Shown here piece by piece: positions 3,735-50,127 of a stretch of DNA of 64,000 nucleotides. A program made the translations under genes and the position numbers. Within the stretch, counting starts at the first letter, position 1. Each line of letters opens with the position of its first letter. The DNA comes from an uncultured Acidobacteriia bacterium (lineage in GTDB: Bacteria; Acidobacteriota; Terriglobia; Bryobacterales; Bryobacteraceae), in NCBI GenBank assembly GCA_903851195.1, contig CAINNJ010000060.1, positions 1 to 64,000 of the forward strand. Direction: 5' to 3'. Under the pieces are notes generated by a model. It ran no database searches and was not told the DNA's origin. It saw only the letters and a list, made by a program, of their open reading frames with translations.

Positions 3735-5597
3735 ATGATTCTTAAACTTCTCGACCCTCGCCGCCGACTGGACTATTCTGTCGCCGCAGCGGCCGGCGCT
3801 TTGCCCATTGTCGCCGCGCTGGCCACCGGAGTCGTGGGGAACTACACGAAAGGCGATGTGGTCGTCTACGGGTTTCTGTCCAAAATCAACTGGATCCTGC
3901 TCTCGCTGTTCCCCGCAATTCTGCTGTTCGCCCTGCGGCGACTGGCGTACCGGATCGCACCGGTAATAGACGAAAAGCCGGCTGCGGATTTGCCGAAAAT
4001 CGTCACGCTGGTGGACACGGCAAAGGGACGGGAGGCCGCCTATGCCCTCCTGCGCCGGGCCATCCTGTCGCCCCGCCTGGCCCTGACGGCGGCCGGAATC
4101 TCGGCGGCCATCGATCTTGCCGACGTAGCGCCCGTTCTGTATCTGTACTGGAAGCGATTGTCAGGCGCTGACCTGTCCGCGGATCTGCCGCTCGCCTACG
4201 GTTCGGACTGGACCACCATGTTTCTCGACGGAGTAACCGGGCCCTGGCAGAACCTGCTGGTGGTGGTCCTTGCCTACAGCCTGCAATTCTGGGCGGTCTT
4301 CGCGGGCGTTTACTTCGCGCTGCTCTGCCTGCGCCACAACATCGTGTTCCTTGACCTGATCTACCAGCGACGAGTGCACACGGGGAAGCGGGCCGAACGG
4401 ATTGTCATCGACCTCGACGACCCGGAACGCTGCTTCGGCTTCCGGCGCGCGAATCAGCCGCTCAACACGCAGATCTCCTGCGTCGCAATCGGGGCACTTT
4501 TCATGATCGCCAGCCGCTTCGTGAATGTCTGGTTTCCGGCTGGCTCACACCCCGATCCACTGGTGTCGTCGTGGAAACAGTTGTTCAGTCTCGGCGGACA
4601 GATTGCCATGCCGGCCGGCCTGGCCGCGGGGATGCTCATCCTCTCGCTGCCGGCCGCCATCAAACTCCTGCCCCGTATTCCCCGAAAGCACGCGTTGACT
4701 CCGGAGGCGACCGTCACGGCCTACCTGCGCGAATTCCTGCCGGACTCGCTTTGGCCATACGGCGAACAGCCCTCCGCTCAGGAAATCGACTATGTGGCCG
4801 CGAAGTTCGCATCCAATGCCTTCTGGCCCACCGGCGACAATCGCGCGACATGGCTGTTCTTCTGGGCCTTCTTCTTCCTTATGGTCGTCGCCTTCCCCGT
4901 AGTCAATCCCGCGCACGGCCTGTACTTCGCGGGCTATCTCGCGGCGATGGGAATGCTTGCCTGGCTGCTGACCGCTGTTTCCCTGCGCCTCTTCCGGATG
5001 CTCCTGGCGACGGTCGACGAACGGCTGGTTCGTCCGCCCTCCGTGCCGGTGGACCCGCCGGAGAAAGCCGCTCTGACACGCCGCGGTGGACGGATCCGCT
5101 GCGGTGTTTTCATCAGCTATCGCCGCGCGGATTCGTCCGCCTATGCGGGCCGGCTGGAAGAGGATCTTTCCGCCCACCTCCATGCTTCCGGCGACATCTT
5201 CATGGACATCACCGATATCGCCGCGGGCACGAACTTCGTGACGGCGATTCACGAAGCCCTGTCAAGGTCGAAGATCGCTCTGATCCTGATTGGGCGCCAC
5301 TGGATCTCCGCGGAAAATGACGCCGGCGTCCCCCGACTACACGATCCGGACGATCTGGTTCGCACGGAAGTTCGCCTCGCCCTGGAGAAAGGCCTGAAGG
5401 TGATTCCCGTGCTCCTCGGCGGCACCCCGATGCCGTCCGCGAAGGATTTGCCCGAAGATCTGAAGCCCCTCGCATTTCTCAACGCACTGGAAATATCCGA
5501 CACCCGCTGGAGTTATGACGTCGAACGGCTGACGGACGCAGTTTCGCTGGAAATAAAAACTCCCGGGGCGACCAAAGTTGCAGGTTCGGGGAAATGA
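3735..5597 (+). CDS. Polytopic membrane protein with a C-terminal TIR domain
   Basis: This 620-residue protein has about eight hydrophobic segments in its first 430 residues (for example around 18-36, 48-68, 170-200, 245-265, 290-312 and 370-420). A cytoplasmic TIR domain follows at about 455-600. TIR hallmarks are GVFISYRRADS at the start, MDITDIAAGTNF and RTEVRLALEKGLKVIPVLLGG; the glutamate in RTEV sits where the catalytic glutamate of NADase TIRs lies. Membrane-anchored TIR proteins occur in bacterial defence and stress signalling. No partner gene is obvious, and the neighbours are an intergenic gap and a convergent secreted protein. NADase activity is inferred. Confidence 0.75.
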   Translation: MILKLLDPRRRLDYSVAAAAGALPIVAALATGVVGNYTKGDVVVYGFLSKINWILLSLFPAILLFALRRLAYRIAPVIDEKPAADLPKIVTLVDTAKGREAAYALLRRAILSPRLALTAAGISAAIDLADVAPVLYLYWKRLSGADLSADLPLAYGSDWTTMFLDGVTGPWQNLLVVVLAYSLQFWAVFAGVYFALLCLRHNIVFLDLIYQRRVHTGKRAERIVIDLDDPERCFGFRRANQPLNTQISCVAIGALFMIASRFVNVWFPAGSHPDPLVSSWKQLFSLGGQIAMPAGLAAGMLILSLPAAIKLLPRIPRKHALTPEATVTAYLREFLPDSLWPYGEQPSAQEIDYVAAKFASNAFWPTGDNRATWLFFWAFFFLMVVAFPVVNPAHGLYFAGYLAAMGMLAWLLTAVSLRLFRMLLATVDERLVRPPSVPVDPPEKAALTRRGGRIRCGVFISYRRADSSAYAGRLEEDLSAHLHASGDIFMDITDIAAGTNFVTAIHEALSRSKIALILIGRHWISAENDAGVPRLHDPDDLVRTEVRLALEKGLKVIPVLLGGTPMPSAKDLPEDLKPLAFLNALEISDTRWSYDVERLTDAVSLEIKTPGATKVAGSGK

Positions 5598-21549: not shown

Positions 21550-22146
21550 TTATGAGGCGAGGATGCGTTCGCGAAGTTCTTCCAGTTCGGCGGCGGATTT
21601 CCTCGCGGCACCGGTGAAGGCGAGCCAGACGAACAGGAGCAGGCAGCACGTCGCGACCATCGGCCAGACACTGGTCAGGTAGCGATACCAGAGCGACGCG
21701 GGGTCGAGTCCCATGGCGCGCGCTTTCAGGGCGGGGCCGCCGCCCCACCAACTCGCCAGCATGGCCGGGATGGTCAGCAGAACGACGCGGCGAACGGCAA
21801 GGAACCCGTCGCGCTTCGTTTTGAGAGAGCGCAGCAGGAACGCGGCGCATGTTTCGTCCGGGGCCTTGCGGTTCGTGCGATTTCGAATGACGCTCCCAAG
21901 GTATAGGGTCATGACGATCAGCATCCAGCCCTGGCCCGCGCGGACCCAGGGCTGATCGACTTCCCATGTGTTGTGGGCGAATGCCACCGCCAGACCGGCC
22001 AGAGCCAGCAGGGCAAGTCGCCTTTGCCAGATGTTTTCTCGCTCGCGACGGCGGGCCAGGGCGCAGATTCCGGTCGCGGAGGGTTGGGGCGGCAGAGCCG
22101 TGTTGTGGTTGTTCCAGAGTTCGTGGGGATGATTATCGGCGTCCAT
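21550..22146 (-). CDS. Membrane protein downstream of an ECF sigma factor
   Basis: A 198-residue protein with a cytoplasmic N-terminal segment of about 40 residues and three or four hydrophobic segments (about 42-60, 70-86, 118-138 and 158-180). GGAG lies six bases before its ATG. It overlaps the end of the sigma factor gene by 14 bases, so it is co-translated. The position and topology suggest a regulator of that sigma factor, but there is no zinc anti-sigma HxxxCxxC motif, so this is inference. Confidence 0.65.
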   Translation of the reverse strand: MDADNHPHELWNNHNTALPPQPSATGICALARRRERENIWQRRLALLALAGLAVAFAHNTWEVDQPWVRAGQGWMLIVMTLYLGSVIRNRTNRKAPDETCAAFLLRSLKTKRDGFLAVRRVVLLTIPAMLASWWGGGPALKARAMGLDPASLWYRYLTSVWPMVATCCLLLFVWLAFTGAARKSAAELEELRERILAS

Positions 22147-22666
22147 GGGAGGCTCCTGAGAAATCGCGACTGAGTATTTTTTTAATGCGGTGTATTTTGG
22201 TGGCCGTGTTGCCGGGGGTCAAACCGGTGACATCGGCGATCTCGGCGCCGGTCGCGCCTTCGAGGTAAAGCAGGATGACCTGGCGGTCCAGGGGAGTGAG
22301 CTGGTGAATCAGGGCCTGGAGTTCGGCTATCTCTTCGCGATGCCGCTCAAGGGCTTCGCCGGCGTGGGCGGTGGGGTCGGCGGCAAGGGCGTCGAGTTCG
22401 ACGAGGCGTTCCGATCGCTTTCGGCGTTTGGTGAGGTGATCGGCGCCGACGTTGTGGCACACCCGGTAGACCCAGGTGCGAAGGCTGCAACGCCGATCGA
22501 ACCGCTGCAGGCTGCGCCAGAGTTCGATGTGCATTTCCTGGAGAAGGTCGCACTGCCGGTCGGCGTCGGATTCATAACCGCGGACCAGACGGCGCATGGA
22601 CTCGCCGTGTTCCGCCTGGGCTTCCAGGTAGAGCCGATCCTGATCGCCCGGTGTTGAGGCTGGCAT
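22133..22666 (-). CDS. ECF-type RNA polymerase sigma factor
   Basis: A 177-residue sigma-70 family protein. Region 2 includes LLQEMHIELWRSLQRFDRRCSLRTWVYRVCHN in pieces, and region 4 includes LTPLDRQVILLYLEGATGAEIADVTGLTPGNTATKIHRIK in pieces. The size and the absence of region 3 are normal for ECF sigmas. It directs transcription to a small regulon, probably including its own operon with the downstream membrane gene. Divergent to it lies the frameshifted secreted protein gene. Confidence 0.9.
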   Translation of the reverse strand: MPASTPGDQDRLYLEAQAEHGESMRRLVRGYESDADRQCDLLQEMHIELWRSLQRFDRRCSLRTWVYRVCHNVGADHLTKRRKRSERLVELDALAADPTAHAGEALERHREEIAELQALIHQLTPLDRQVILLYLEGATGAEIADVTGLTPGNTATKIHRIKKILSRDFSGASHGRR

Positions 22667-32607: not shown

Positions 32608-32814
32608 GTGGCGGTGGAGAGTTCGAGGATCACGGTGGAGCCCGGGAAAATGGGCGGGAAGGCGTGTATCCGGGGCTTGCGTTTTACGGTTTACGATCTG
32701 GTTTCTTATCTGGCTTCCGGGATGACGGAGGAGGAAATTCTGCGGGAGTTTCCTTATCTGGAGAAAGAGGATTTTCTGGCGGTTTACGGATTTTTCGCCG
32801 AAAGGGCGATTTGA
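32608..32814 (+). CDS. DUF433 protein (antitoxin-like) coupled to TIR-SAVED
   Basis: A 68-residue protein of the DUF433 family: ITVEPGKMGGKACIRGLRFTVYDLVSYLASG (in two motifs), then MTEEEILREFPYLEKEDFLAVYGFFAERA. DUF433 proteins are HTH-containing and normally pair with PIN-like (DUF5615) toxins. Here the toxin slot is taken by a TIR-SAVED gene whose TTG start overlaps this gene's TGA (TTGA at 32811-32814). The GTG start has a strong GAGGGGGGAG site. It lies 14 bases after the DUF1080 gene on the same strand. A regulatory or antitoxin-like role toward the effector is inferred. Confidence 0.8.
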   Translation: MAVESSRITVEPGKMGGKACIRGLRFTVYDLVSYLASGMTEEEILREFPYLEKEDFLAVYGFFAERAI

Positions 32815-34001
32815 CAGACGCAACGGGAAGAAGTTTCTTTTGTTATCGGAGCAAGCGCAAAGACGATAACGCGCTGGTGATCGCCGCTCAGCGCGATCAC
32901 GGAATTCCGACATGGCACGATGAAGACCTGGACGAACTGCCGGTGGAAGAGGAAATCCGGCGAATTCTCAGGGACGAGAATCTGGTCGCCAACGCAATCA
33001 TCTGGGTTACGCCGGACGCGGCGGAATCCGGTTTTATCAAAAACATCGAGAGCCCTGAAATTCTCGGCCGCAGGGGAGAAGGCGATCCGTTTTTCGTGTT
33101 GCCCGTTTTTGCCGGAGGCAGCACTTTTTGTCCGGAAACCGACGAACGTTTCCGGGGCTGGAAGGTTCTTCAGCTTGAGAACAAGGCTATTGGCCCCGAT
33201 GAGGCGGCGGCGATTGCACGGCGGGTTCTCGACCGGCGAGTCCGAGCGGTGGAAGCTCAACTGGAGCCTGGATTTCCGCACCGGATCAGCCTGCATACCT
33301 ATGAGAGTGCCCCTTTTCGGCCGGGCACTACGCTGTCGCTCGATTGGTCGGGACGTTGTCCTAACCGGGAGATCAGCGGGGAGGTGTGGAGTGAGCGGCT
33401 GCTTCCCGCACTTCGGGCCGTCGCCAGTACCATGTATCAGTGGGGCGGAGGCAGGCCAATTGTTGCTGGTGGGTTGGCCTCACTTCCCGCGGTAACAGCC
33501 TTAGGCGCGGCATTTCCGGAGCAGCGCGGCCAAACGATTTGCTGGAATCAATATACGCCTGGAGTGCCCGACCAGCATTGGAGCCTGGCGGTGCCCGCGG
33601 AAGAAGCGGGATTCGAGGTAAAGATCACTCCGGGAGACAGTCGAGCGGTGGATCTGGCCGTATTGGTCTCCGTCAAAGAAATCGCACAGCAGGATTTTTC
33701 CGACTGCAAAGACAGCCTTCCCGCTTTTCGGGCCGAAGTTCATATTGCGCGCAAAGACCTGCGCCCATACGTGATTCCGTCGCCGGGACAGGCGACCTGC
33801 ATCGCGCGCCAGGTTGCCGCAGCCATGCGAGAGGCGAGGCGAGAATGCGGGGCAATCGGAAGAGTCCACCTGTTTATGGCGGTTCCGGCGGGACTGGCGA
33901 TGATGATCGGCCAGTTGCTCAACACCTTTGGCCCCGTTCAGACGTACGAGCGCTTCGCCACCGGAACGCCTTACCGGCCCGCCGCGCTGCTCGGACAATA
34001 A
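32811..34001 (+). CDS. TIR-SAVED effector of a type III CRISPR locus
   Basis: A 396-residue protein from TTG 32811, with an AAAGGG ribosome site. The N-terminal TIR domain (about 7-135) has FFCYRSKRKDDN, GIPTWHDEDL and IIWVTPDAAESGFIKNIESP; E80 is the likely NADase glutamate. The C-terminal SAVED domain (about 190-390) includes HWSLAVPAEEAGFEVKI, DSLPAFRAEVHIARK, GRVHLFMAVPAGLAMMIGQL and QTYERF. SAVED senses cyclic oligonucleotides; TIR-SAVED is known from CBASS, where cA3 polymerises it into an NADase. Here no CD-NTase is near, and the gene abuts the cmr operon, with one base between the convergent stops. A Cas10-made ligand is inferred. Confidence 0.85.
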   Translation: MTDATGRSFFCYRSKRKDDNALVIAAQRDHGIPTWHDEDLDELPVEEEIRRILRDENLVANAIIWVTPDAAESGFIKNIESPEILGRRGEGDPFFVLPVFAGGSTFCPETDERFRGWKVLQLENKAIGPDEAAAIARRVLDRRVRAVEAQLEPGFPHRISLHTYESAPFRPGTTLSLDWSGRCPNREISGEVWSERLLPALRAVASTMYQWGGGRPIVAGGLASLPAVTALGAAFPEQRGQTICWNQYTPGVPDQHWSLAVPAEEAGFEVKITPGDSRAVDLAVLVSVKEIAQQDFSDCKDSLPAFRAEVHIARKDLRPYVIPSPGQATCIARQVAAAMREARRECGAIGRVHLFMAVPAGLAMMIGQLLNTFGPVQTYERFATGTPYRPAALLGQ

Positions 34002-34002
34002 G

Positions 34003-34776
34003 TCAGCGCGATTTGGCGGAGGGCTTATCCGGTTTCAGGCGGCCGTAGCCCGAACTGGTCTTGCCGCCGACGCCGGAGGTCTTCAGCGCTTCTTCGAGAA
34101 GTTGCAGGGCGAATGCGGACCAGCGGGCGCCCTCCGGGCCGGGTACGTCGCACTCCACAACGACGCGGAACCGGCCTCTAACAGAGAGAAAGGCCACCGG
34201 ATTGGGATCTTCGCCGTCGTGCGGCGCGATGGAGTCGCCGGCATAATACTTCGGGTGGTGGCTGGTCATCACATCGCGCAACAGGCCTTCGCCGTTGGCC
34301 GTGAGGCTGTCCGGCATCATCCAGGCATCCTGAAACCGGATGTGACCCGCATTTCCTGCCGTCCCGAAGAGCGCCTGCCGCACTTCCGCGGCAGGAAAGT
34401 CCGGCGATTCGGGGTAGGCCTCGCGGCAGTAGTGAGCCACCGTGCCCTTCAGGCCGGAGCCCGGGATGAGCGGTATGCCGTAGGTGTGGTGCAGACGAAT
34501 TCCGGTTTCGAGAACGCCCTTCGCTCCAAGGCCCGTAATAAGGCGGGTCTGCACGCGGAAGAGCGCGCTGGTCAGGTCTCGGGTCTCTTCGAGCCAACGG
34601 TCCCAGGCCAGCCGGTAGATCCCCTGCGCGTTGCGGCAGGCGCGAAGCGTGTGGTCGAACAGGCGCTTCTTCCCGTCCTCGGTCTGCTCCTCGAGGTAGC
34701 GGCCGAAAATGAGGCCGGCGTGGGCGCCATTCCCCGCCCTTGCGACGCGGACAAGATTGTCGCGAACGGCTGTCAT
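34003..34776 (-). CDS. cmr6: Type III-B CRISPR RAMP protein Cmr6
   Basis: A 257-residue RAMP protein with Cmr6 blocks: FRVQTRLITGLGAKGVLETG, the IPLIPGSGLKGTVAHYCRE motif, GHIRFQDAWMMP and the terminal glycine-rich loop SGVGGKTSSGYGRL. It caps the Cmr backbone by binding the 3' region of crRNA. It is the last cmr gene, and its ATG overlaps the stop of cmr5 (ATGA). Its stop is one base from the stop of the convergent TIR-SAVED gene, leaving no room for a separate terminator. Confidence 0.9.
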   Translation of the reverse strand: MTAVRDNLVRVARAGNGAHAGLIFGRYLEEQTEDGKKRLFDHTLRACRNAQGIYRLAWDRWLEETRDLTSALFRVQTRLITGLGAKGVLETGIRLHHTYGIPLIPGSGLKGTVAHYCREAYPESPDFPAAEVRQALFGTAGNAGHIRFQDAWMMPDSLTANGEGLLRDVMTSHHPKYYAGDSIAPHDGEDPNPVAFLSVRGRFRVVVECDVPGPEGARWSAFALQLLEEALKTSGVGGKTSSGYGRLKPDKPSAKSR

Positions 34777-35177
34777 GGAGCGACGCTTTCCTTCTTTGAC
34801 TCAGCCGCCGCGTCGGCGGATTTCAGGAAGGCCTCGGCGTAGCGCTTCAGGTACTCGCAGTAGCGGATGGATTCCATGGCGAGGTGCTGGTAGCGGTTCA
34901 GGTCCGCCTCGCGAACGGCGGCGCCAAGGCGATCGTAGTCCGCGTTTTCCGGCTCCCCCAACAGGGCTTCGCAAAGGCCGGCGAGCACGCGGAGATGGTG
35001 GTCCTTTTTCTTCGCGCGAAGAAAGGCCACGGTTTGACAGAGGCCGCAATCGTGAATCAGGGCGGGAAGGCCGAGGACCAGCGAGCAGTAGTCGCTCTGC
35101 CGGTTTTCCGGCCATTCCAGCACCGTCTTAGTGGATTCGAAGGCTTTTTTTGCGCGTTCCTGATCTTTCGTGGCCAT
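34773..35177 (-). CDS. cmr5: Type III-B CRISPR small subunit Cmr5
   Basis: A 134-residue all-helical protein starting MATKDQERAKKAFES, with YCSLVLGLPALIHDCGLCQT (tentative core helix), LNRYQHLAMESIRYCEYLKR and a charged tail. The size, helical content and position between cmr4 and cmr6 identify it as Cmr5, the small subunit that lines the target RNA. A much longer frame upstream overlaps cmr4 and is spurious. Seven bases separate it from the cmr4 stop. Confidence 0.85.
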   Translation of the reverse strand: MATKDQERAKKAFESTKTVLEWPENRQSDYCSLVLGLPALIHDCGLCQTVAFLRAKKKDHHLRVLAGLCEALLGEPENADYDRLGAAVREADLNRYQHLAMESIRYCEYLKRYAEAFLKSADAAAESKKESVAP

Positions 35178-35184
35178 GTTCTTC

Positions 35185-36123
35185 TCAATTCGTGAACAGG
35201 CAGCGCATGCGGCCTCTGCCCACGGTCGCTTTACCGCCGATCTGGAGGGAGAGTGGTTCCCCGCAGATCGCGTCGAGGAGTTGCCGCTGCGTGAACGCGC
35301 CCGACTTTTTGGCGAAGACGCGGTCACACCACACGAGGCCGCAAAGAATGGATTCCGCCGGGAGGGCTTCTTCGTACCAGAGTTGACCGGCAGCGACGGT
35401 TTTGGTTTCGCTATCGATCCGCACCCGCGCCTGGACTTCGCAGGCGGTGCGGCTGAGGTAGTTGAACGTATTGTCCGGAACGACGACGAAGCGCTTCGGA
35501 AATTCTTTGCGCCATTCGCCGGGCGGGAAGACGGCTTCGGCGATGGCTGTGGCCCACTTCGCGGCAACGTCGGAAGGCTGGGTGTCCAGATCGAGGTCGG
35601 TCAGGTAGACGCGGTTTTCGCCGGAGGCGGCAAGAAGAACGGAACGGTCCGCTCCTGACACGCCCGGTACAAGGGAGATTTCTTTGGGCGGAGCGCCGCA
35701 GGAAGCTTCAGGAAGGTTTCCCAGGCCGACGCCCGCCAGATCGGCATCGCGGCGGGCGCGGCGAAGCGCCATGGGCGAAGTGACCCAGGCGAAGGTGCCG
35801 TAGTAACTGGCAACGGGAAGGCAGAGAAGGCGGGCGTCGGTGAAGACAACAGCGCCTGAGTTGGAACCAGGTTCTTCGCCGTTCTCCGCCTGCCCGAAGG
35901 CCAGCCGGAGAATCTCATTTTTGTCTTTGATGGGGGCGTGCTGCTCGAACTGGTCGCGGCGGACGCCTTTGATGGCGGAACCGGGGATCAGGGGCCAGTC
36001 GGTGGTCTTCTCTCGCATGATGGGGAGGTCGATGAAGCCGGCTCCGGCGCCGGTGCCGACATGCGCGGGAGTGATGGCGTGAAGCCAGTACATTTTCGTG
36101 TTCACGTTGTTGGTGTCCTTCAT
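35185..36123 (-). CDS. cmr4: Type III-B CRISPR backbone RNase Cmr4
   Basis: A 312-residue RAMP protein that forms the repeated Cmr backbone and cuts target RNA at 6-nt intervals. Blocks are YWLHAITPAHVGTGAGAGFI, DLPIMREKTT, PLIPGSAIKGVRRD, the beta-rich middle and the GKATVGRGRMRCLF glycine-rich loop near the C-terminus. The aspartate in FIDLPIMRE (residue 32 from this start) matches the catalytic Asp of Cmr4. The start ATG 36123 overlaps the cmr3 stop (ATGA); an in-frame start at 36144 is less likely. RNA cleavage therefore looks intact. Confidence 0.9.
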   Translation of the reverse strand: MKDTNNVNTKMYWLHAITPAHVGTGAGAGFIDLPIMREKTTDWPLIPGSAIKGVRRDQFEQHAPIKDKNEILRLAFGQAENGEEPGSNSGAVVFTDARLLCLPVASYYGTFAWVTSPMALRRARRDADLAGVGLGNLPEASCGAPPKEISLVPGVSGADRSVLLAASGENRVYLTDLDLDTQPSDVAAKWATAIAEAVFPPGEWRKEFPKRFVVVPDNTFNYLSRTACEVQARVRIDSETKTVAAGQLWYEEALPAESILCGLVWCDRVFAKKSGAFTQRQLLDAICGEPLSLQIGGKATVGRGRMRCLFTN

Positions 36124-37232
36124 GCGGTAGTCCATTTGCCCCAAAGAGCAAGGCCGAATCCATCGAACCGGGCCTGTTCGCCATCGGAAACGGGCTGAAG
36201 CCAGAGCTTGTCGGCGGCAAGTTCGCCCCCGAGGCGCTCGAAAAAGTAGACGGCGCCGGCCGGGACAAGGCGGCGCACGGGTTTCTCGCCAAAGTTACGG
36301 GTGTCGAGGCTCCAGCCGGAGACCGGCTTCCACGGTTCCAGGCAGGCCGAGACCAGGCGAACCCGGCAGGAAGAGCCGGGAATAGTGCCGCAAAAATGGC
36401 CATCGAGCCAGTCCGGCTTCCAGCCGTGTCGGAACAGCGCCGGGGTAGCGAGAATCAAACGAATCCTTTCGGCGGATTCGAGTTTTCCCGCCAGCCCCCG
36501 CGGGCAGTCCCACAGTGCAGAGGAGTCGCCTGACCATGCGGCCAGCCTGCGCTCTCCGCCAAAGGGATGGATGCCGGGGGTGGCGGCAAGGCTGCCGGTA
36601 ACGCGTACAGCCAGACGCATGTGCTCATGGAACTGAAAGCCGGCCGTCTGGAAGAGCATGCCATCGACATTGGCGCCGCTGTCATCGTTCAATTCGAGGT
36701 GCGTGCGGAGATCGGGTTCGGGTCCTGCGGCAAAGCCGTTTTTCAACCAATCTTCCCGAGCGCCGGGAGGGTGAGGAAGTTCGTCGAGCAGCCACTCCGT
36801 CATGCGTGGGGCGGTCCACCAGGGCGGAGCGGGACCGGGTTTGCAGTCGTCCACCGAGGGGTCGAGCCCCGCCGGGAGCAGACTGCCGGGAAAGTCCGCG
36901 CCCTCTCCTTCCGCGAGGATCTCGGGGCGAATCCGGACCCAGGTTGCACCACCTGCGTCTTCGCGCAGCACGAGATCGCGGGGCGCGGGGAAACAAAGAT
37001 GTTCCGCTACGACGGGGAGCGGTCCGGCGACGGCGGTACTTTTCAATTCTTCGATGAGATCCGGCGTGAAGCCGCCGTCTTGCTGTTTTCCAAGGAAAGT
37101 TCGGAAGCTGCCTGCGGCGACCGAGGGATAAAGCCACGGCGCGAGGCGCATGCGGACGCCGCTGTTATTTCCGAAGGGGCGGCCGTCGCGGGCGACCAGG
37201 GAACCCAGCGGTGTGACGAGGAAGGCGCTCAT
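36120..37232 (-). CDS. cmr3: Type III-B CRISPR protein Cmr3
   Basis: A 370-residue RAMP protein opening SAFLVTPLGSLVARDGRPFG, the classic Cmr3 start, then RLAPWLYPSVAAGSFRTFLG. The C-terminal part holds a second RRM and a Gly-rich region near RRLVPAGAVYFFERL. Cmr3 binds the 5' tag of crRNA and joins Cas10 to the backbone. It is coupled to cas10 upstream (ATGA overlap at 37229-37232) and to cmr4 downstream. Confidence 0.88.
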   Translation of the reverse strand: MSAFLVTPLGSLVARDGRPFGNNSGVRMRLAPWLYPSVAAGSFRTFLGKQQDGGFTPDLIEELKSTAVAGPLPVVAEHLCFPAPRDLVLREDAGGATWVRIRPEILAEGEGADFPGSLLPAGLDPSVDDCKPGPAPPWWTAPRMTEWLLDELPHPPGAREDWLKNGFAAGPEPDLRTHLELNDDSGANVDGMLFQTAGFQFHEHMRLAVRVTGSLAATPGIHPFGGERRLAAWSGDSSALWDCPRGLAGKLESAERIRLILATPALFRHGWKPDWLDGHFCGTIPGSSCRVRLVSACLEPWKPVSGWSLDTRNFGEKPVRRLVPAGAVYFFERLGGELAADKLWLQPVSDGEQARFDGFGLALWGKWTTA

Positions 37233-38911
37233 GCAAGGAGTCTCTTTCCGGCGGCTTCGCGGCGGGCACCGGCGAAGCGGCGCGCGACGATCAATTCACG
37301 CGCAGTTTTGTGGAGTTCGTGCGCGCTGGTGGCGTTTCGCAGCAGGTACTCAAGTTCGGGCAGCAGCGCGGCACCACGCTTTCGGCTCAGCACGAAGGCG
37401 GCTTCGCCGGGCAGAGCTTCCTGCAGCCAGGCTTCACCGGTGAGGCCGTCATAGCGGCGGGCGCAGGTTTCCAGGTCATAACCCGCCTTTTCCCCGAAGG
37501 ATCCGTCCGTGTAGAGAGCGATAAACATTTCGAGACGATCGGGAAATTCGGAATCCCAACGGCCGCGGATTCGGGAGGGTTCACCGCCGCGGGTGTGGAA
37601 GTGGATGGCAAGACCGTTGCGGTCGGGTAGTTTGGCGTCCTTTTCGGCCTCTGCGGCATAGCCCAGGAGGTCTTCAAGAGGTTCCATGAAATGGCCAATG
37701 CCAATGCCGACAGAGAGAGTAGGCTGAGGTCCGGTCGCCTGGATGCCGCGCAAACACTCCTTAAAGGACCGCTGGAGTGCGTCGGCGCAGGCAAGGGCCT
37801 GGTCCACGGGAAGGAGGGCGAGGACATCGTCGCCTCCGGCATAGACGAGGGCCCCGAAATGTTTTTCGACGAGGGTGCCTGCATTTACCGAGAAGCCGGC
37901 AAGCTTTCTGGAAAATTCCCGGTGCCGCGCGGCGGAGGAGAGGTCCGCGATGAGAGCGCCCATTTTGTCGCCATCGGCGCGGAGAACAGCCAGATAAGGC
38001 GAGGGTATACCGGCGGTTTTCTGGAGTTCTGGAATGTTCAGTCTTTCCAGTTTCCGTGCGGCCTCGGGGTCATCGGCCTCCTCGATCAGGTCCTCATGCC
38101 GGTCGGGGTAGAGCACGATGCCGTCAAAAGGAAAATGCTGGTATTGGCTGGCGGCGATGCGAGTCAGGAAACCGATGCCGGAGCATTGCGCGGTGAGGAG
38201 CTTGAGAATTTCGGGCCGACTTTCGAGAAGCCCGCGGAGCCAGCCATCGGCGGCGATCCTCGCGACTGACGGGTAAAGTTGAAGCCCGGCGCCAAGCCGC
38301 TTGGTGAGCCCGATCGCGTCGAGTTCTTCCCCCTGGTTGAGGCGAAGGGATTTGGGGCGAATCTCGCCCTTTCGAAGTTCCTTCAGGACCGTTTCGCGGG
38401 CGCCGTCGAGAGAGCTCTTGGGGATCCGCATCTGCGTTTCGATGGAAGGCTGGAAGAGGCGCATATGCTTACGGCCTTCCAGCAGGCGCATGACGCGGCG
38501 GCGCTGCGTTTTATAGCCCGCATCGTCGGGATAGAGCACCCAGGCGGCAAAGAATTCCAGAAAATCGTCGATCTGAGATTCCCAGCGGGTTTTTACGATG
38601 GAGGCAGAGACCCCGGGATTGGTCAGAACCCTTTCCGCAACGTTCCTCCAGCGCTTTCCGGCGGCTTCGCGGGCCGCTTTGGCGACAGCGGCGGGATCCG
38701 CCGTCTCAATCTCAAAGAGAATGATGTTGGCTATGTTTCCGGAAATTTCGTGAGGGAAAATCAGAATGCCGTGTTGTTCCTGAATGGCACTGGCGGCTGC
38801 CTGGCTGATATCGGAAAGTATTTTGGAACCGAACCACAGGTCGCGGGTGCGGCGCGCGGCCGCGATGAAGCTTTGAACCGGCCCCAGGGAGATTGCCATC
38901 AGGTGGCGCAT
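37229..38911 (-). CDS. cas10: Cas10/Cmr2, cyclase-competent and lacking the HD domain
   Basis: A 560-residue Cas10. It begins directly with the palm-like block LMAISLGPVQSFIAAARRTRD (residues 4-24) and LWFGSKILSDIS, typical of Cmr2, with no HD nuclease domain before it and no visible zinc-finger cysteine pairs. The second palm domain carries YLAVLRADGDKMGALI (307-321) and YAGGDDVLALLP, with GGDD at 359-362. The cyclase site therefore appears functional, making cyclic oligoadenylates on target RNA binding, while DNA cleavage is probably absent. It is short for Cmr2. Start ATG 38911 overlaps the cmr1 stop (TGATG). Confidence 0.9.
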   Translation of the reverse strand: MRHLMAISLGPVQSFIAAARRTRDLWFGSKILSDISQAAASAIQEQHGILIFPHEISGNIANIILFEIETADPAAVAKAAREAAGKRWRNVAERVLTNPGVSASIVKTRWESQIDDFLEFFAAWVLYPDDAGYKTQRRRVMRLLEGRKHMRLFQPSIETQMRIPKSSLDGARETVLKELRKGEIRPKSLRLNQGEELDAIGLTKRLGAGLQLYPSVARIAADGWLRGLLESRPEILKLLTAQCSGIGFLTRIAASQYQHFPFDGIVLYPDRHEDLIEEADDPEAARKLERLNIPELQKTAGIPSPYLAVLRADGDKMGALIADLSSAARHREFSRKLAGFSVNAGTLVEKHFGALVYAGGDDVLALLPVDQALACADALQRSFKECLRGIQATGPQPTLSVGIGIGHFMEPLEDLLGYAAEAEKDAKLPDRNGLAIHFHTRGGEPSRIRGRWDSEFPDRLEMFIALYTDGSFGEKAGYDLETCARRYDGLTGEAWLQEALPGEAAFVLSRKRGAALLPELEYLLRNATSAHELHKTARELIVARRFAGARREAAGKRLLA

Positions 38912-40182
38912 CAGGATCGGAAACCTCTCTTATCGGCGAAGGCCAGGAAGGCGTCCACGGCGGAACCGCTGGCAGAGCCCTGAAGGGGTGAACGTGGGTA
39001 TTTTGCCAAGTCGGGGCGAGCCACGGATGCGGGACCAAGAGATTTCTCTCCGAGTCGTTTTTCCTTAAACACGACGCGGACTCCGGCTAGAGTGGGCCGG
39101 GAGACCAGATGAATTGCGGACACGGCCTGTTTCCCGTCCCCGAACGCGAGAGGGCGCAGGATGAGAGGGCTGGCGAGGCGGTTCGATTCCTTGTCCTCAG
39201 GCAGCAGGGTGCAATTATTGATCTCATCCAGAGGGCTCTTCGCGCGCGAGCGAAACGTGATCTGAATCGGCAGACCGAACTCGGCGCGGGGAAAGGCATC
39301 GGTCGTGGTTTGCGGGGTCATGTGGCCGGGGATCCCTTGGCCGGTGATGGCGCGAAGGGAGTCGGCTTCAGGCCAGTACGAGCGCGAGTAGGTGGTGGCC
39401 TGACCTGCCGTTCCGCTCCGGCCGATGGGTGGCAACTGCCGAAACTCTTGCAGGAGGCGAAGGCCAGCGAGCCAGGCGGAAAGGGGATCATTGGGCTTGA
39501 CCGCTTTCACGAGGGGAGCGCGGAAAAGCGTGGCCCAGTCCGGCGGGTCATTACCACTCCTGATCAGGTAATCGGGCTGGTTGCGGAACCAGGCGGAGAT
39601 ATTGGCCGCGACGGGTGGAGCGAATTGCTGACAGTAAAGTGCGCCGCAGCCGCGGCGCGTGCGGGCGCCGATGCCGCCGAAATTCGACCAGGCCCACAGC
39701 GCGGCTTCAGCGTCCTTACTCAGATTTTCCGGGCAGGTGAGGCGGAGGCCGAAGGAGAGTGAGGACCAATAAGGAGCGGCGGACTCACGGCCCATCTCGT
39801 TAAACGGGAACAGAGCGTAGGTCAGATCGGAATTTTCTCCGATCAACACGTCTGCGGTCGATCTCTTCGTCTTAATGTCGAAGACTTCGACGGCAATGGG
39901 GCTGCGGGTTTTAGTGTCGCCCCAAATGGCGGATTCGGCGGCACGGAGTTGTTGCGCGTTATTGAACTGGCGGCCGCGGGTAGCGCGCCACCAGAAGCGG
40001 AGATGGCCGCGGACAGTTGTGCCGCGAACCGGGGTGTAGTCGTCCGGGATGCGGCCCTCAACTCCAGCCCCGAACGCGGGCGTGATGGTGCGGAAGTCGT
40101 ATTCGGTGGTGAGTTTTGCGGCGGCGGGGGACGGGAGGCTGGAGGGGAACGGGGGGAGAGTTCGAGTTTTGCGTGGCTGCAA
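38911..40182 (-). CDS. cmr1: Type III-B CRISPR RAMP protein Cmr1
   Basis: A 423-residue protein with Cmr1 blocks: YDFRTITPAFGAGVEGRI (residues about 29-46), the hallmark TTVRGHLRFWWRATRGRQF, SNFGGIGARTRRGCGAL and a late IHLVSRPTLAGVRVVFKEKR. Cmr1 binds the 3' end of the target or crRNA at the base of the complex. It is the first gene of the cmr operon; the promoter should lie in the 680-bp region shared with the divergent CRISPR array. Confidence 0.9.
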   Translation of the reverse strand: MQPRKTRTLPPFPSSLPSPAAAKLTTEYDFRTITPAFGAGVEGRIPDDYTPVRGTTVRGHLRFWWRATRGRQFNNAQQLRAAESAIWGDTKTRSPIAVEVFDIKTKRSTADVLIGENSDLTYALFPFNEMGRESAAPYWSSLSFGLRLTCPENLSKDAEAALWAWSNFGGIGARTRRGCGALYCQQFAPPVAANISAWFRNQPDYLIRSGNDPPDWATLFRAPLVKAVKPNDPLSAWLAGLRLLQEFRQLPPIGRSGTAGQATTYSRSYWPEADSLRAITGQGIPGHMTPQTTTDAFPRAEFGLPIQITFRSRAKSPLDEINNCTLLPEDKESNRLASPLILRPLAFGDGKQAVSAIHLVSRPTLAGVRVVFKEKRLGEKSLGPASVARPDLAKYPRSPLQGSASGSAVDAFLAFADKRGFRS

Positions 40183-40863: not shown

Positions 40864-41273
40864 GTCGGAAACCATGCCCCCATGCGAAGGGGATTGAGAC
40901 GGATAGCTGCATAGTGCGGGGCCGGAGGTCTTCCAGTGCGTCGGAAACCATGCCCCCATGCGAAGGGGATTGAGACGCGAAGGGTGCCGACCCCACTGAC
41001 GCCGACCAGTTCCGTCGGAAACCATGCCCCCATGCGAAGGGGATTGAGACCTGAAACCCGACCGTCGCATTCGACGTGTTCGACATACGTCGGAAACCAT
41101 GCCCCCATGCGAAGGGGATTGAGACGGCGTCCAAGCGACTACTTCGTCTGCAATGTCGGGTCGGAAACCATGCCCCCATGCGAAGGGGATTGAGACGGAA
41201 TCGTCGGTTTGCCTGTGAGATCCGAATAATTGCCAGGTCGGAAACCATGCCCCCATTCGAAGGGGATTAAGAC
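40864..41273 (+). CRISPR. CRISPR array: six 37-bp repeats, five spacers
   Basis: Repeats lie at 40864-40900, 40940-40976, 41014-41050, 41089-41125, 41160-41196 and 41237-41273. They start GTCGGAAACC and end ATTGAGAC, which fits the 8-nt crRNA 5' tag of type III systems; the core CCCCCATGCGAAGGGG can form a hairpin for Cas6. The first five repeats are identical. The sixth has two changes (CATTCGAA and ATTAAGAC), marking the leader-distal end. Spacers are 39, 37, 38, 34 and 40 bp. Transcription is predicted on the plus strand. Confidence 0.97.
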
Positions 41274-42951: not shown

Positions 42952-43563
42952 TCACGCTCCGGGCGCGGGCGGTTTGGGTTCGAGGGCAATCCGGGCGCTC
43001 GCCACGATGACGGGCCAGGTCGGGCTGCCCAGGGCGTCCTGAGCCGCTTTGTCGAGGAGTTTCCTGTAGGGCTCGTAAGCGGCGAGAATTTCCCGGGCGG
43101 GCAGGCTGGGGGGATTGAAGTCCGGCTGGAGGCTGAGCCAGTCGGCGACGCGCTTGATGACGCGGGCGGGAGTCTGGTCGTGATCGTAGGGGTCGTAACC
43201 GGCGAGGTCCGAGATGAATTTCTGGTGGACGAAATTCTCGGGCACCAGGGCGACCCAGTTGTGTTCGGCGGCGCGCAGGTGGCGGATGCCAAGAGCCATG
43301 CCGAGTTCGAGCGGCATGTTGAAGCGGGCAATATTATCCGCGCCTTCGCCCTGGTAGCGGGAGAGATCGTGAATCGAGTATTTGGATTCGGCCAGGCCGG
43401 TGGCGATGCGGACGATGCGCGGGCTGGCCTGGCCTTCGGATTCGCGGGCGCAGCGGGGTTCGAAGCCGCGCGCCACGATGGCAAGGACGATGGCGTGGAG
43501 GACAGGCTCAAAGGCCTGGTCGAAAGGGCAGTTGATAAAGACGGAGCGCGCGTAATCCGGCAC
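42952..43563 (-). CDS. 'FINCPFD' family protein (TIR-like/nucleotide-binding fold)
   Basis: A 203-residue protein opening YARSVFINCPFDQAFEPVLHA, followed by GFEPRCARESEGQASP, KYSIHDLSRYQG and RFNMPLELGMALG. I recognise this arrangement from a widespread uncharacterised family whose fold resembles TIR or nucleoside deoxyribosyltransferase proteins. The late PENFVHQKFISDLAGYDPYDH block is also typical. It starts three bases after the stop of a TIR gene on the same strand, so the two form an operon. A defence or nucleotide-processing role is inferred from fold and context. Confidence 0.65.
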   Translation of the reverse strand: MPDYARSVFINCPFDQAFEPVLHAIVLAIVARGFEPRCARESEGQASPRIVRIATGLAESKYSIHDLSRYQGEGADNIARFNMPLELGMALGIRHLRAAEHNWVALVPENFVHQKFISDLAGYDPYDHDQTPARVIKRVADWLSLQPDFNPPSLPAREILAAYEPYRKLLDKAAQDALGSPTWPVIVASARIALEPKPPAPGA

Positions 43564-43566
43564 GTT

Positions 43567-44100
43567 TTATTTGAGCGCTCGCAGGGCGGCAAGCTTTGCG
43601 TCGTCGATGCCCAGGTCGCGGACAAATTCGTCGAAGCTCTTCATCGCTTTGGCGCGGGCGTCGCGGCCACGCTGCAGTTTCTCTTCGTCGACATTGTCCT
43701 GCGGACTGGCAAGGGCGGCGGCGATGAAGTCGGCGGCTCCGGCGAAGTCCGGCGAGGCAGCGTCCAGCGGATAAGCTTTCCGCACGCTCAGGAAGCCGGG
43801 CAGTTCCGCGTCGCCGATCACCACCGGAATGAGAGGCCGGGTGGAATCGAGATAAAACTCCTCCTCCACCACCTGACGAAGTTCGAACTGCTGGCCCCGG
43901 TCGGTTTCATTGCCGGGTCCGAGGACAAATACGAGGGCGGTAGAGGCCCGGATGGCTTCGGCGACTTTCGCGGTCCACTCGACGCCCGATTCCAGATCGA
44001 GGACGTCGAGCCAGGTCGGGACATTGCGCTTGTTGAGTTCGTTACAGAGCTTCAGCGCCGCGCTGGCATTTTGCCGTGAGTGCGAGATGAAGACCGACAT
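43567..44100 (-). CDS. Stand-alone TIR domain protein
   Basis: A 177-residue protein consisting of a TIR domain: MSVFISHSRQNASAALKL, PTWLDVLDLESGVEW, STALVFVLGPGNETDRGQQF, and E73 at the position of the catalytic glutamate (QQFELR). About 40 helical residues follow. It lies nine bases after smc and three bases before the FINCPFD gene, all minus strand. TIR proteins of this size act as NADases in several defence systems or as signalling adaptors. Which applies here cannot be told from sequence. Confidence 0.75.
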   Translation of the reverse strand: MSVFISHSRQNASAALKLCNELNKRNVPTWLDVLDLESGVEWTAKVAEAIRASTALVFVLGPGNETDRGQQFELRQVVEEEFYLDSTRPLIPVVIGDAELPGFLSVRKAYPLDAASPDFAGAADFIAAALASPQDNVDEEKLQRGRDARAKAMKSFDEFVRDLGIDDAKLAALRALK

Positions 44101-48061: not shown

Positions 48062-48328
48062 GTGTACGTTTCCGCCGCGTCCGGCCGGAGGCGGAAAGAA
48101 TTCTTTGTGCCCGCCGGGAAAAGCCGCGCCGTCATAAATGTTGTGATGCAAAATTCTTCCTCCCTAATCCGGGCCGTGATCAATTTCGGAGACGGTTCGC
48201 GGCTGCATACAACCTGGTATGAAAAAGGCAACCCGAAGCTGATTGAAGCGATGATGCGGCTGGCGAGGCGGGCGCGGCGCGAAGTGTCCAGAGTGAAGTG
48301 GGAAACCAAACCGGTCAAAGAACAGTAA
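48062..48328 (+). CDS. Hypothetical 88-residue protein
   Basis: GTG 48062 opens a frame giving MYVSAASGRRRKEFFVPAGK, then RAVINVVMQNSSSLIRAVIN, FGDGSRLHTTWYEKGNPKL and a Lys/Arg-rich helix. No family is recognised and no clear ribosome site precedes it. Its end overlaps cas6 by 14 bases, convergently. The composition is plausible for a small basic protein, possibly nucleic acid binding, but it could be chance. Confidence 0.35.
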   Translation: MYVSAASGRRRKEFFVPAGKSRAVINVVMQNSSSLIRAVINFGDGSRLHTTWYEKGNPKLIEAMMRLARRARREVSRVKWETKPVKEQ

Positions 48329-49265
48329 GAGCGATTTCGCCCTTGCCCCAAACGGCCTGGCGGCCGACGCCGGTCCAGCGGGCGGCTTCCAGAAAAGGGA
48401 GAAATTCGCTCAATTCACCCTGGTATTCGACGGCACCGAGGAAACCACCGATGGGATGTGTCTGGCCGGTGCGGCTGCTGTGGCGAAGAACCTGTTCGTG
48501 GCGGAGGCTGCAGTGAACGACTTTAACGTCGGCGGAGCGGAGCCCGCTGCCCTGATAATCGATGTCGAGCGCGCCCGCGCCGTAGAGACGGCGCAGTGTG
48601 CTGATGCGGTCGCGAATCCGTCCGAAAAGGATGGGGAATTCGGGGCGGGTGGCGATGCGGTGGTCATGCTTGAGCTCGGTAGGGCTCAGAAACTCGATGC
48701 GAAGGCGGTCCGGCGCCGGGCCGGACGGCGCCAGACTCAGGGAAACCGGTTCGGGCGCCACGGCACTGAATCCGCCGTCGTAGCGGTAAAGCGCCGCTTC
48801 CGGGAAATCTCCCGCGGGAAGACGGACCACGCTCCGGAGTTCGGCCTTGCCGCGGCGCGGTCCCAGGCCTTCGTGGGCGAGAGCGGCGAAGGTTTGAACG
48901 AAGCAGGCGAGCGTTTCGGCGTCCTGCGTAAAGACGTGCAGGTCGAAGTGGAAAGTCTGGCCGGGCGCCATGGTTCGGCCGTCAAGGTGGCGGGCCCGGA
49001 AGACGAAAGGGCGGGGGGCATCGGCGAGACCGCTGGGTCCGACGCCGGCGTTTTCGGGCGCGAAGATACGGCCATAGGGGCAGGTGTGGCGCCGCGGGCA
49101 TACACGGGCGTCGTCGCAGGCGGGCGGGCAGGCGATCCCGCGGAAGAGCATGCCGAGCGCGCCGCGAAGCACGTTGGCGGCGTGACCGGCAGGCAGGAAG
49201 ATCGGCTCGCGGGCCATGAATTCAAAGCGGAGAGGATAAAAATCAAACCGCACGTGTCGGGTCAT
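48315..49265 (-). CDS. cas6: CRISPR pre-crRNA endoribonuclease Cas6 (RAMP type)
   Basis: A 316-residue protein starting MTRHVRFDFYPLRFEF. It has the layout of the Cas6 group with a cysteine cluster (GIACPPACDDARVC, RRHTCPYG, near residues 45-70). Later blocks are GFSAVAPEPVSLSLAPSG, HCSLRHEQVLRHSS and PIGGFLGAVEYQGELSEFLP, ending in the glycine-rich loop WTGVGRQAVWGKGEIAL. It cuts array transcripts within the repeat. It is the only crRNA-processing enzyme seen and lies 8 kb from the cmr genes, on the same strand, behind smc. The longer frame to 49442 overlaps the divergent SDR gene. Confidence 0.85.
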   Translation of the reverse strand: MTRHVRFDFYPLRFEFMAREPIFLPAGHAANVLRGALGMLFRGIACPPACDDARVCPRRHTCPYGRIFAPENAGVGPSGLADAPRPFVFRARHLDGRTMAPGQTFHFDLHVFTQDAETLACFVQTFAALAHEGLGPRRGKAELRSVVRLPAGDFPEAALYRYDGGFSAVAPEPVSLSLAPSGPAPDRLRIEFLSPTELKHDHRIATRPEFPILFGRIRDRISTLRRLYGAGALDIDYQGSGLRSADVKVVHCSLRHEQVLRHSSRTGQTHPIGGFLGAVEYQGELSEFLPFLEAARWTGVGRQAVWGKGEIALTVL

Positions 49266-49297
49266 TATACGATTCCGGGCCTGCCGGAACATTTCTA

Positions 49298-49309
49298 TAC
49301 CGATCGGTA
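49298..49309. promoter_or_regulatory. Perfect 12-bp palindrome, TetR-type operator candidate
   Basis: TACCGATCGGTA lies between cas6 and the divergent SDR gene, 57 bases before the SDR start. The ACCGATCGGT core is the usual operator of TetR-family regulators that control SDR genes. No tetR gene is in the window, so the regulator must be elsewhere. The same region would hold the cas6 promoter. Confidence 0.5.
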
Positions 49310-49365
49310 AAAAATCCGAAGCCGTCCGGATTTGAAGCTCATCTGTGTTCGTGTAAGGAGAGCAA

Positions 49366-50127
49366 ATGGCAAACGGAAACGGCAAATTGCAGGGAAAAAC
49401 AGCGGTGGTGACGGGCGCTTCCAAGGGAATTGGCGCGGGCATCGCGAAGGCTCTGGCGAGCGAAGGCGCGCGGGTGGTGGTGAACTACTCGTCCAGCAAA
49501 GAAGGCGCGGACCGCGTGGTCGCCGAGATTACGGGCAAAGGCGGCGAAGCGATTGCCGTGCAGGGAGACATGTCCCGCCAGGCCGATATCGCGAACCTGT
49601 TCGCGGAGACGGAAAAGGCCTACGGCAAGCTGGACATCCTGGTGAACAACGCCGGTATTTACGAATTCGCGCCGCTTGAAGGGATCACGGAAGAAAGCTT
49701 CCACAAGCAGTTCAATCTGAACGTTCTGGGTCTGCTGCTGGCCACCAAAGAAGCGGCCACGCGGTTTGGCGCGGAGGGCGGCAGCATCATCAACCTCAGT
49801 TCTCTGGTGAGCAAGACGACGCCGGCGAACACGTCCGTTTATTCCGCGACGAAAGCCGCCGCGGACGCGCTGACGGGCTCGTTCGCGAAGGAACTGGGGC
49901 CGCGCAATATCCGGGTGAATGCGATTAATCCGGGGATGATCGAAACCGAAGGATTGCAGTCCGCGGGTTTCGCGGAAGGCGACTTCCGGAAGTGGATCGA
50001 GGCGCACACGCCGATGGGCCGCATCGGACAGACGGACGACATCTACCCGACCGCCGTTTACCTGGCTTCCTCGGATTCGAAGTACATGACCGGCGAAACC
50101 CTGGTTCTGGCCGGGGGACTCCGCTGA
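49366..50127 (+). CDS. Short-chain dehydrogenase/reductase
   Basis: A 253-residue classical SDR. The NAD(P) site is TGASKGIGAG (residues 17-26), the NNAG motif is in DILVNNAGIY, the catalytic Ser is in INLSSLVS, and the YxxxK is in SVYSATKAAAD, followed by NAINPGMIETEG. It oxidises or reduces an alcohol or ketone; the substrate is not evident (FabG/glucose-dehydrogenase-like). A GGAG site precedes the ATG. Its stop overlaps the DinB gene start (TGATG). A TetR-type operator sits upstream. Confidence 0.9.
   Translation: MANGNGKLQGKTAVVTGASKGIGAGIAKALASEGARVVVNYSSSKEGADRVVAEITGKGGEAIAVQGDMSRQADIANLFAETEKAYGKLDILVNNAGIYEFAPLEGITEESFHKQFNLNVLGLLLATKEAATRFGAEGGSIINLSSLVSKTTPANTSVYSATKAAADALTGSFAKELGPRNIRVNAINPGMIETEGLQSAGFAEGDFRKWIEAHTPMGRIGQTDDIYPTAVYLASSDSKYMTGETLVLAGGLR

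Follow-up and report, generated by a model that had tools for sequence, protein, structure and literature searches.

A 64,000-nucleotide stretch of DNA from an uncultured Acidobacteriia bacterium of the family Bryobacteraceae (GenBank assembly GCA_903851195.1, contig CAINNJ010000060.1, positions 1 to 64,000; hereafter the window) encodes a type III-B (Cmr) CRISPR system whose Cas10, lacking both the HD nuclease domain and the zinc ribbon and belonging to the lineage of the Thermus thermophilus complex TtCmr, probably signals through cyclic oligoadenylate (cOA) to a TIR-SAVED protein encoded beside cmr6. An ordinary Cas10, HD-less and from a characterised type III-B lineage, is thus paired in the window with an uncommon probable effector. 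An initial annotation had described this Cas10 but not the neighbouring TIR-SAVED gene, although the latter tells more about the locus; the lack of an HD domain alone is ordinary, and the uncommon part is the TIR-SAVED effector.

The genes cmr1-cas10-cmr3-cmr4-cmr5-cmr6 form a complete, tightly packed operon on the minus strand (34003-40182) that adjoins a CRISPR array and, judged from Pfam, PADLOC and NCBIfam matches, the locus is a complete type III-B system (Table 1). The extent and the length of cas10, 560 residues, are as initially annotated, and so is the absence of an HD nuclease, the protein beginning at the first palm domain. Pfam Cmr2_N aligns from its first profile position with residues 4-54, Cas10-Cmr2_palm2 aligns with residues 306-434, and PADLOC Cas10 model PDLC01422 (519 positions) covers residues 2-548. 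Only 9 residues precede the GPVQSFI motif at the start of palm 1, versus 129-285 residues before GPVQ in the 18 HD-type Cas10s of the tree described below. In alignments with solved structures, residue 4 of the window Cas10 corresponds to residue 22 of 9arw_A (612 residues) and its residue 5 to residue 250 of 9l7c_B (1004 residues). Six sense codons separate the ATG from an in-frame stop 7 codons upstream, and the last base of cmr1 is the first base of cas10. With this stop and with palm 1 starting at residue 4, there is no room in the frame for an HD domain, and the protein has neither an HD dipeptide nor an N-terminal extension. Domain content was taken from profiles and alignments because the AlphaFold models were too poor to use (mean predicted local distance difference test score of 37.7 for Cas10 alone, from a single sequence, and 44.4 for TIR-SAVED, from two sequences).

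The predicted cyclase motif is intact. GGDD lies where the initial annotation had placed it, and both DGD and GGDD are invariant across 11 aligned members of the window Cas10 group. GGDD is present in 16 of the 17 rows of that group, the exception being L104, a broken open reading frame (ORF) without GGDD.

The initial annotation had also seen no zinc-finger cysteines, and this holds: the protein has four cysteines and no CxxC. In the ribbon-bearing Cas10s of our alignment, the two knuckles read approximately (K/R)C(S/T)xCGxR and ExLC(A/G)xCxxKR. The columns of the first knuckle read PKSSLDG in all 17 rows of the window group, and those of the second read ExLDxxG(L/V/I)xKR in most rows, with LCG(V/P)G retained in four (L075-L078). 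Because the same alignment columns hold other residues, the zinc ribbon of this group appears to have been replaced in place, not deleted. Four plasmid Cas10 rows likewise carry KS(S/T)LDG at the first-knuckle position (4 of 4). Replacement of the first knuckle by this motif provides a simple sequence marker for the window Cas10 lineage. Loss of zinc binding is not unique to the group, since the CxxC pair is also absent from nine tree rows outside it.

The phylogenetic check proposed with the initial annotation places the window Cas10 in a wholly HD-less, well-supported group together with the TtCmr Cas10. The tree comprised 41 Cas10 rows, 33 from a phylum search and 8 from a search of 200 family genomes. 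Besides the window itself, the 33 phylum rows comprised 18 long ORFs and a further 14 taken from neighbourhoods chosen for short frames, five of the 14 coming from outside the 30 listed phylum loci. Two Cas10s split by internal stops (L039 and L066) were left out, as were weaker matches and, where a genome had two copies, usually the second; L056, which has a stop in its match, was kept as its long piece. The window falls in a 17-row group with support of 100/99, in which every member is HD-less and without the CxxC pair. When the four plasmid Cas10s were added, Cmr2 of T. thermophilus HB8 fell inside this group, now of 21 rows (Shimodaira–Hasegawa-like approximate likelihood ratio test support of 99, in a quick tree without bootstrap). 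Viral contigs searched with the Cas10 alignment yielded no relative.

Loss of the HD domain is the ordinary, majority condition among Cas10 proteins, a survey of type III systems having recognised an HD domain in 437 of 1113 (39%; PMC11229360), and the word 'specialised', applied to the window Cas10 at the outset, was therefore an overstatement. Within our tree 23 rows are HD-less (counting L104, whose N-terminal ORF extension is an artefact) and the other 18 carry an N-terminal region of 129-285 residues, with at least four changes on the tree; 23 of 41 is not a frequency, because the rows were partly chosen for short frames. Judged by frame length, 9 of 27 among the 30 listed phylum loci (the window, L039 and L066 excluded) are HD-less, the query model itself being HD-less in size.

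The closest characterised relative found is TtCmr of T. thermophilus HB8 (plasmid pTT27), whose 584-residue Cas10 is about 38% identical to that of the window over 537 aligned positions. Like the window Cas10 it is HD-less, starts at palm 1, has an intact GGDD and carries KSSLDG at the first-knuckle position, and it likewise belongs to a full cmr1-6 set. The gene order differs, being cas10-cmr3-cmr1-cmr4-cmr5-cmr6 in TtCmr, and the native cOA-activated proteins of TtCmr are described as CARF proteins, whereas the window has TIR-SAVED.

TIR and SAVED lie together in the one chain encoded beside cmr6: PADLOC PDLC02012 is matched over its positions 8-390 of 404, PF18145 identifies the SAVED domain, and residues 27-380 match the TIR-SAVED protein of PDB entry 7qqk (E 2e-10). 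No Pfam TIR model matched at E 0.01. Residue E80 aligns with E84 of 7qqk, which we take to be the catalytic residue of the TIR domain, and is invariant in five aligned TIR-SAVED proteins. The TTG start codon is backed by relatives that begin MTDP or MTN. The gene lies tail to tail with cmr6, a single base separating the two stop codons. The 7qqk protein, from a Microbacterium, belongs to a cyclic oligonucleotide-based antiphage signalling system (CBASS), whereas the window protein has a type III-B Cas10, not a CD-NTase, as its neighbour. Queries with PF18144, PF18134 and the CD-NTase of a CBASS locus (L007), the last of these run without a positive control, revealed no CD-NTase next to TIR-SAVED or elsewhere in the genome, and Cas10 is therefore the evident source of a cyclic nucleotide.

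The best evidence that TIR-SAVED is probably the effector of this system is its position, which we compared with the neighbourhoods of the 16 other members of the window Cas10 group. A CARF effector is found in 12 of the 16: TM-CARF in L100, L102 and L105; CARF-HEPN of the Csx1 type in L073, L075, L078 and L080; CARF-PDDEXK in L071, L076 and L101; SIR2-CARF with Csx15 and TM-CARF in L103; and CARF7 with DUF2103 in L074. In 10 of these 12 (L071, L073, L075, L076, L078, L080, L100, L101, L103 and L105) the effector ORF either overlaps cmr6 at its far end or lies at most 72 bases from that end; in the other two it is located between cmr5 and cmr4 (L074) or 891 bases further on (L102). Because the slot after cmr6 holds the effector in so many CARF-bearing relatives, the protein that occupies it in the window is probably the effector there. 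The TM-CARF gene of L105 is convergent with cmr6, the same arrangement as that of the window TIR-SAVED. No effector was recognised in three of the 16 neighbourhoods (L072, L077 and L104, the last on a contig of 4.9 kb).

Two of these neighbourhoods also contain proteins with a SIR2 or TIR domain. Directly downstream of cmr6 in L103 (3469-6089, minus strand) is a SIR2-CARF fusion of 498 residues, an NADase-type effector by another route; a figure legend of PMC10910872 names SIR2 among CRISPR-linked CARF/SAVED proteins. L099 (1-1135, minus strand), at the end of a 5-kb contig, has a TIR protein whose SAVED match stays below threshold, next to a Cas10 closely related to that of the window. This protein may be a divergent TIR-SAVED; a firm assignment was not accepted, as hhalign covers only the TIR part and SAVED falls under the Pfam cut-off.

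Several observations weigh against TIR-SAVED as the effector fed by this Cas10. It lies on the opposite strand to the cmr genes and 3' of a small DUF433 gene, so that it does not form one operon with them, and in the relatives the slot effector is on the cmr strand in 9 of 10, being convergent in L105 only. The absence of a CD-NTase is based on three queries and not on every clade, and a second Cas10-like gene, on contig C38 of the same genome, could also supply the messenger. Moreover, the pairing is not conserved: a match across both TIR and SAVED came from 1 genome of 396 in the phylum sample, where 75 matched the model (the remainder over part of it; no more than four candidates were scored in each genome), and from 1 of 200 in the family sample, where 4 matched. 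The opposite strand, the DUF433 partner and the lack of a conserved pairing in the family would fit a recently landed neighbour, the real effector lying elsewhere, for example a TM-CARF protein on C38 acting in trans or the product of the TIR gene at 43567-44100. The TM-CARF model has one match in the genome, at C38, and TM-CARF stands beside Cas10 in four of the seven members of the Cas10 group that come from the same family (L100, L102, L103 and L105). However, such an arrival is unlikely to account for a gene that sits in the shared post-cmr6 slot, with the convergent TM-CARF gene of L105 as a parallel, and that gives the only SAVED match in a genome (7.72 Mb, 67 contigs, 99.7% complete) in which the three queries found no CD-NTase.

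The C38 gene belongs to a second type III-like locus (L069, positions 184000-196635 of contig C38 in genome G000), with a 552-residue Cas10 in which the GGDD position was read as AGED, RAMP-like proteins (several, among them one with 808 residues, by eye), the TM-CARF protein and an array near the contig end (by eye). The idea that this Cas10 is cyclase-dead was dropped, since AGDD and GGED are rated as probably active in PMC11229360.

The association of TIR-SAVED with type III systems is rare and patchy, not new, seven such loci having been reported (Hoikkala et al., PMC11229360). A search of genome contigs gave a single match, L007 (34%), whose CD-NTase-like, HORMA-like and AAA+ ORFs, recognised by eye, mark it as a CBASS locus. 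Twelve plasmid records matched TIR-SAVED and three of them were examined. Like the window, the Halocatena marina plasmid record (L107) has TIR-SAVED adjoining a type III operon, but one of type III-A with csx2 and an 809-residue Cas10; in two further haloarchaeal records TIR-SAVED lies beside ThiF-type genes, as in CBASS. The window protein is 33% identical to the CRISPR-linked Halocatena protein, 35% to that of CBASS locus L007, and 33% and 31% to the two haloarchaeal CBASS proteins. These values, 33% for the CRISPR-linked protein versus 31-35% for those of CBASS, did not set apart a CRISPR clade of TIR-SAVED. The Halocatena record also has an annotated DUF433 gene followed by a PIN-like DUF5615 gene (21675-22303); in the window, DUF433 precedes TIR-SAVED.

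In the mechanism that we propose, binding of target RNA guided by the CRISPR RNA would lead Cas10 to synthesise cOA, the SAVED domain of TIR-SAVED would bind this messenger and filaments would assemble, and the TIR domains would then cleave NAD+ so that growth stops, while cutting of the target RNA by Cmr4 would switch the signal off. The initial annotation had likewise assigned immunity to RNA cutting by Cmr4 and cOA signalling with no DNase, a view supported by analogy because TtCmr, the nearest characterised relative, has no HD domain in its Cas10, is reported without DNase activity (PMC8376896), and makes mainly cyclic tetra-adenylate (cA4), as determined by liquid chromatography–mass spectrometry with nanopore data in agreement (PMC11223493). 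Cmr4 of the window retains the conserved catalytic Asp, D39 in ORF numbering, whose counterpart in solved Cmr4 proteins (PDB chains) lies in the stretch VDLPI/IDLPI.

The size of the messenger is undecided, cA4 being favoured by the Cas10 relatives and cyclic tri-adenylate (cA3), the activator of CBASS TIR-SAVED (PMC11229360), by the effector. Hoikkala et al. (PMC11229360) tentatively suggested cA4 for CRISPR TIR-SAVED because one such locus also carries Csx1. A second line towards cA4 is that the window Cas10 group contains a cA4 producer and that its other members have CARF effectors of types that are listed among those activated by cA4, namely Csx1 and Cam1 (PMC11229360), the TM-CARF proteins of the relatives being candidates for the latter, and also Can2/Card1. 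Against cA4, the window TIR-SAVED is no closer to the Halocatena protein than to those of CBASS, and VmeCmr of Vibrio metoecus makes mainly cA3 (PMC8682760). VmeCmr resembles the window system in combining an HD-less III-B Cas10, which lies outside our tree sample, with an effector shared with CBASS, but that effector is the nuclease NucC (PMC8682760). We put forward tentatively, as possible rather than probable, that the window TIR-SAVED answers cA4 and not cA3, having been swapped into the effector slot of a cA4-making Cas10 lineage that otherwise drives CARF effectors (Csx1 and other CARF-HEPN, CARF-PDDEXK, TM-CARF and SIR2-CARF). If this is true, SAVED-TIR modules pass between CBASS and type III systems by changing their ring-size specificity. 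The locus makes testable which messenger activates a TIR-SAVED that serves a type III system, since its Cas10 group includes a producer of cA4 that has been characterised biochemically, and since CARF effectors serve 12 of 16 relatives, in 10 cases from the same slot; the response of TIR-SAVED to cA3 versus cA4 would tell whether effector or cyclase has changed.

It is very unlikely that this Cas10 makes another messenger, such as S-adenosylmethionine-AMP (SAM-AMP), or none: GGDD and DGD are intact, CARF effectors predominate among the group relatives as described above, the characterised member makes cA4 (PMC11223493), and no CorA-type match was obtained with PADLOC, whose CorA model is of unchecked quality, in 19 window proteins. 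Most improbable of all is that the system still cuts DNA through a nuclease hidden in Cas10 or in another subunit, for which we found no supporting evidence: Cas10 has neither an HD dipeptide nor an N-terminal extension, none of the six cmr products matched a DNA-nuclease family in Pfam, PADLOC or NCBIfam, and the homologous TtCmr is, as noted, reported without DNase activity (PMC8376896).

Table 1. Positions of the type III-B genes, the array, the TIR-SAVED gene and the adjacent DUF433 gene in the window
Feature	Position	Strand	Description
DUF433 gene, small	32608..32814	+	PF04255 E 9e-21; 3' end overlaps TIR-SAVED start; may or may not belong to the system
TIR-SAVED (probable effector)	32811..34001	+	396 residues, TTG start; PADLOC SAVED5--SAVED_TIR E 5e-57; PF18145 E 8e-25
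cmr6	34003..34776	-	257 residues; TIGR01898 E 3e-37
cmr5	34773..35177	-	PF09701 E 2e-23; start MATKDQ set from profile boundary
cmr4	35185..36144	-	TIGR02580 E 4e-70; PDB alignments
cmr3	36120..37232	-	370 residues; PF09700 E 4e-59; under NCBIfam cut-off (79 of 100 bits)
cas10/cmr2	37229..38911	-	560 residues, HD-less; palm 1 from residue 4; PKSSLDGARE 164-173; DGD 313-315; GGDD 359-362
cmr1	38911..40182	-	423-residue ORF; Pfam, PADLOC and NCBIfam matches
CRISPR array	40864..41273	.	6 repeats of 37 nt, 5 spacers of 34-40 nt
cas6	48315..49442	-	PADLOC PDLC01477 E 6e-72; PF10040 E 3e-13

The only Cas1 match in the genome is on another contig. The whole array had no match among 50,697 phage records, and the exact cores of two of the five spacers had none in viral contigs. 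The gene for cas6 is found 7 kb past the array, with a TIR gene pair and a long SMC-like gene (named by eye) between them. The pair (42952-44100, minus strand) consists of the TIR protein at 43567-44100 (TIR_2, E 4e-17) followed by a protein of 203 residues that had no Pfam, PADLOC, NCBIfam or PHROGs match at the limits used, and may be another defence pair.

Beside the array on the plus strand, the product of 42020-42706 matches phrog_27743 (E 5e-29), of unknown function, and also part of phrog_2, a terminase large subunit family (E 1e-6). Far from the cmr genes, positions 3735-5597 (plus strand) encode a protein of 620 residues that has hydrophobic segments in its N-terminal part and, in its C-terminal part, the TIR-like stretch GVFISYRR, recognised by eye only.

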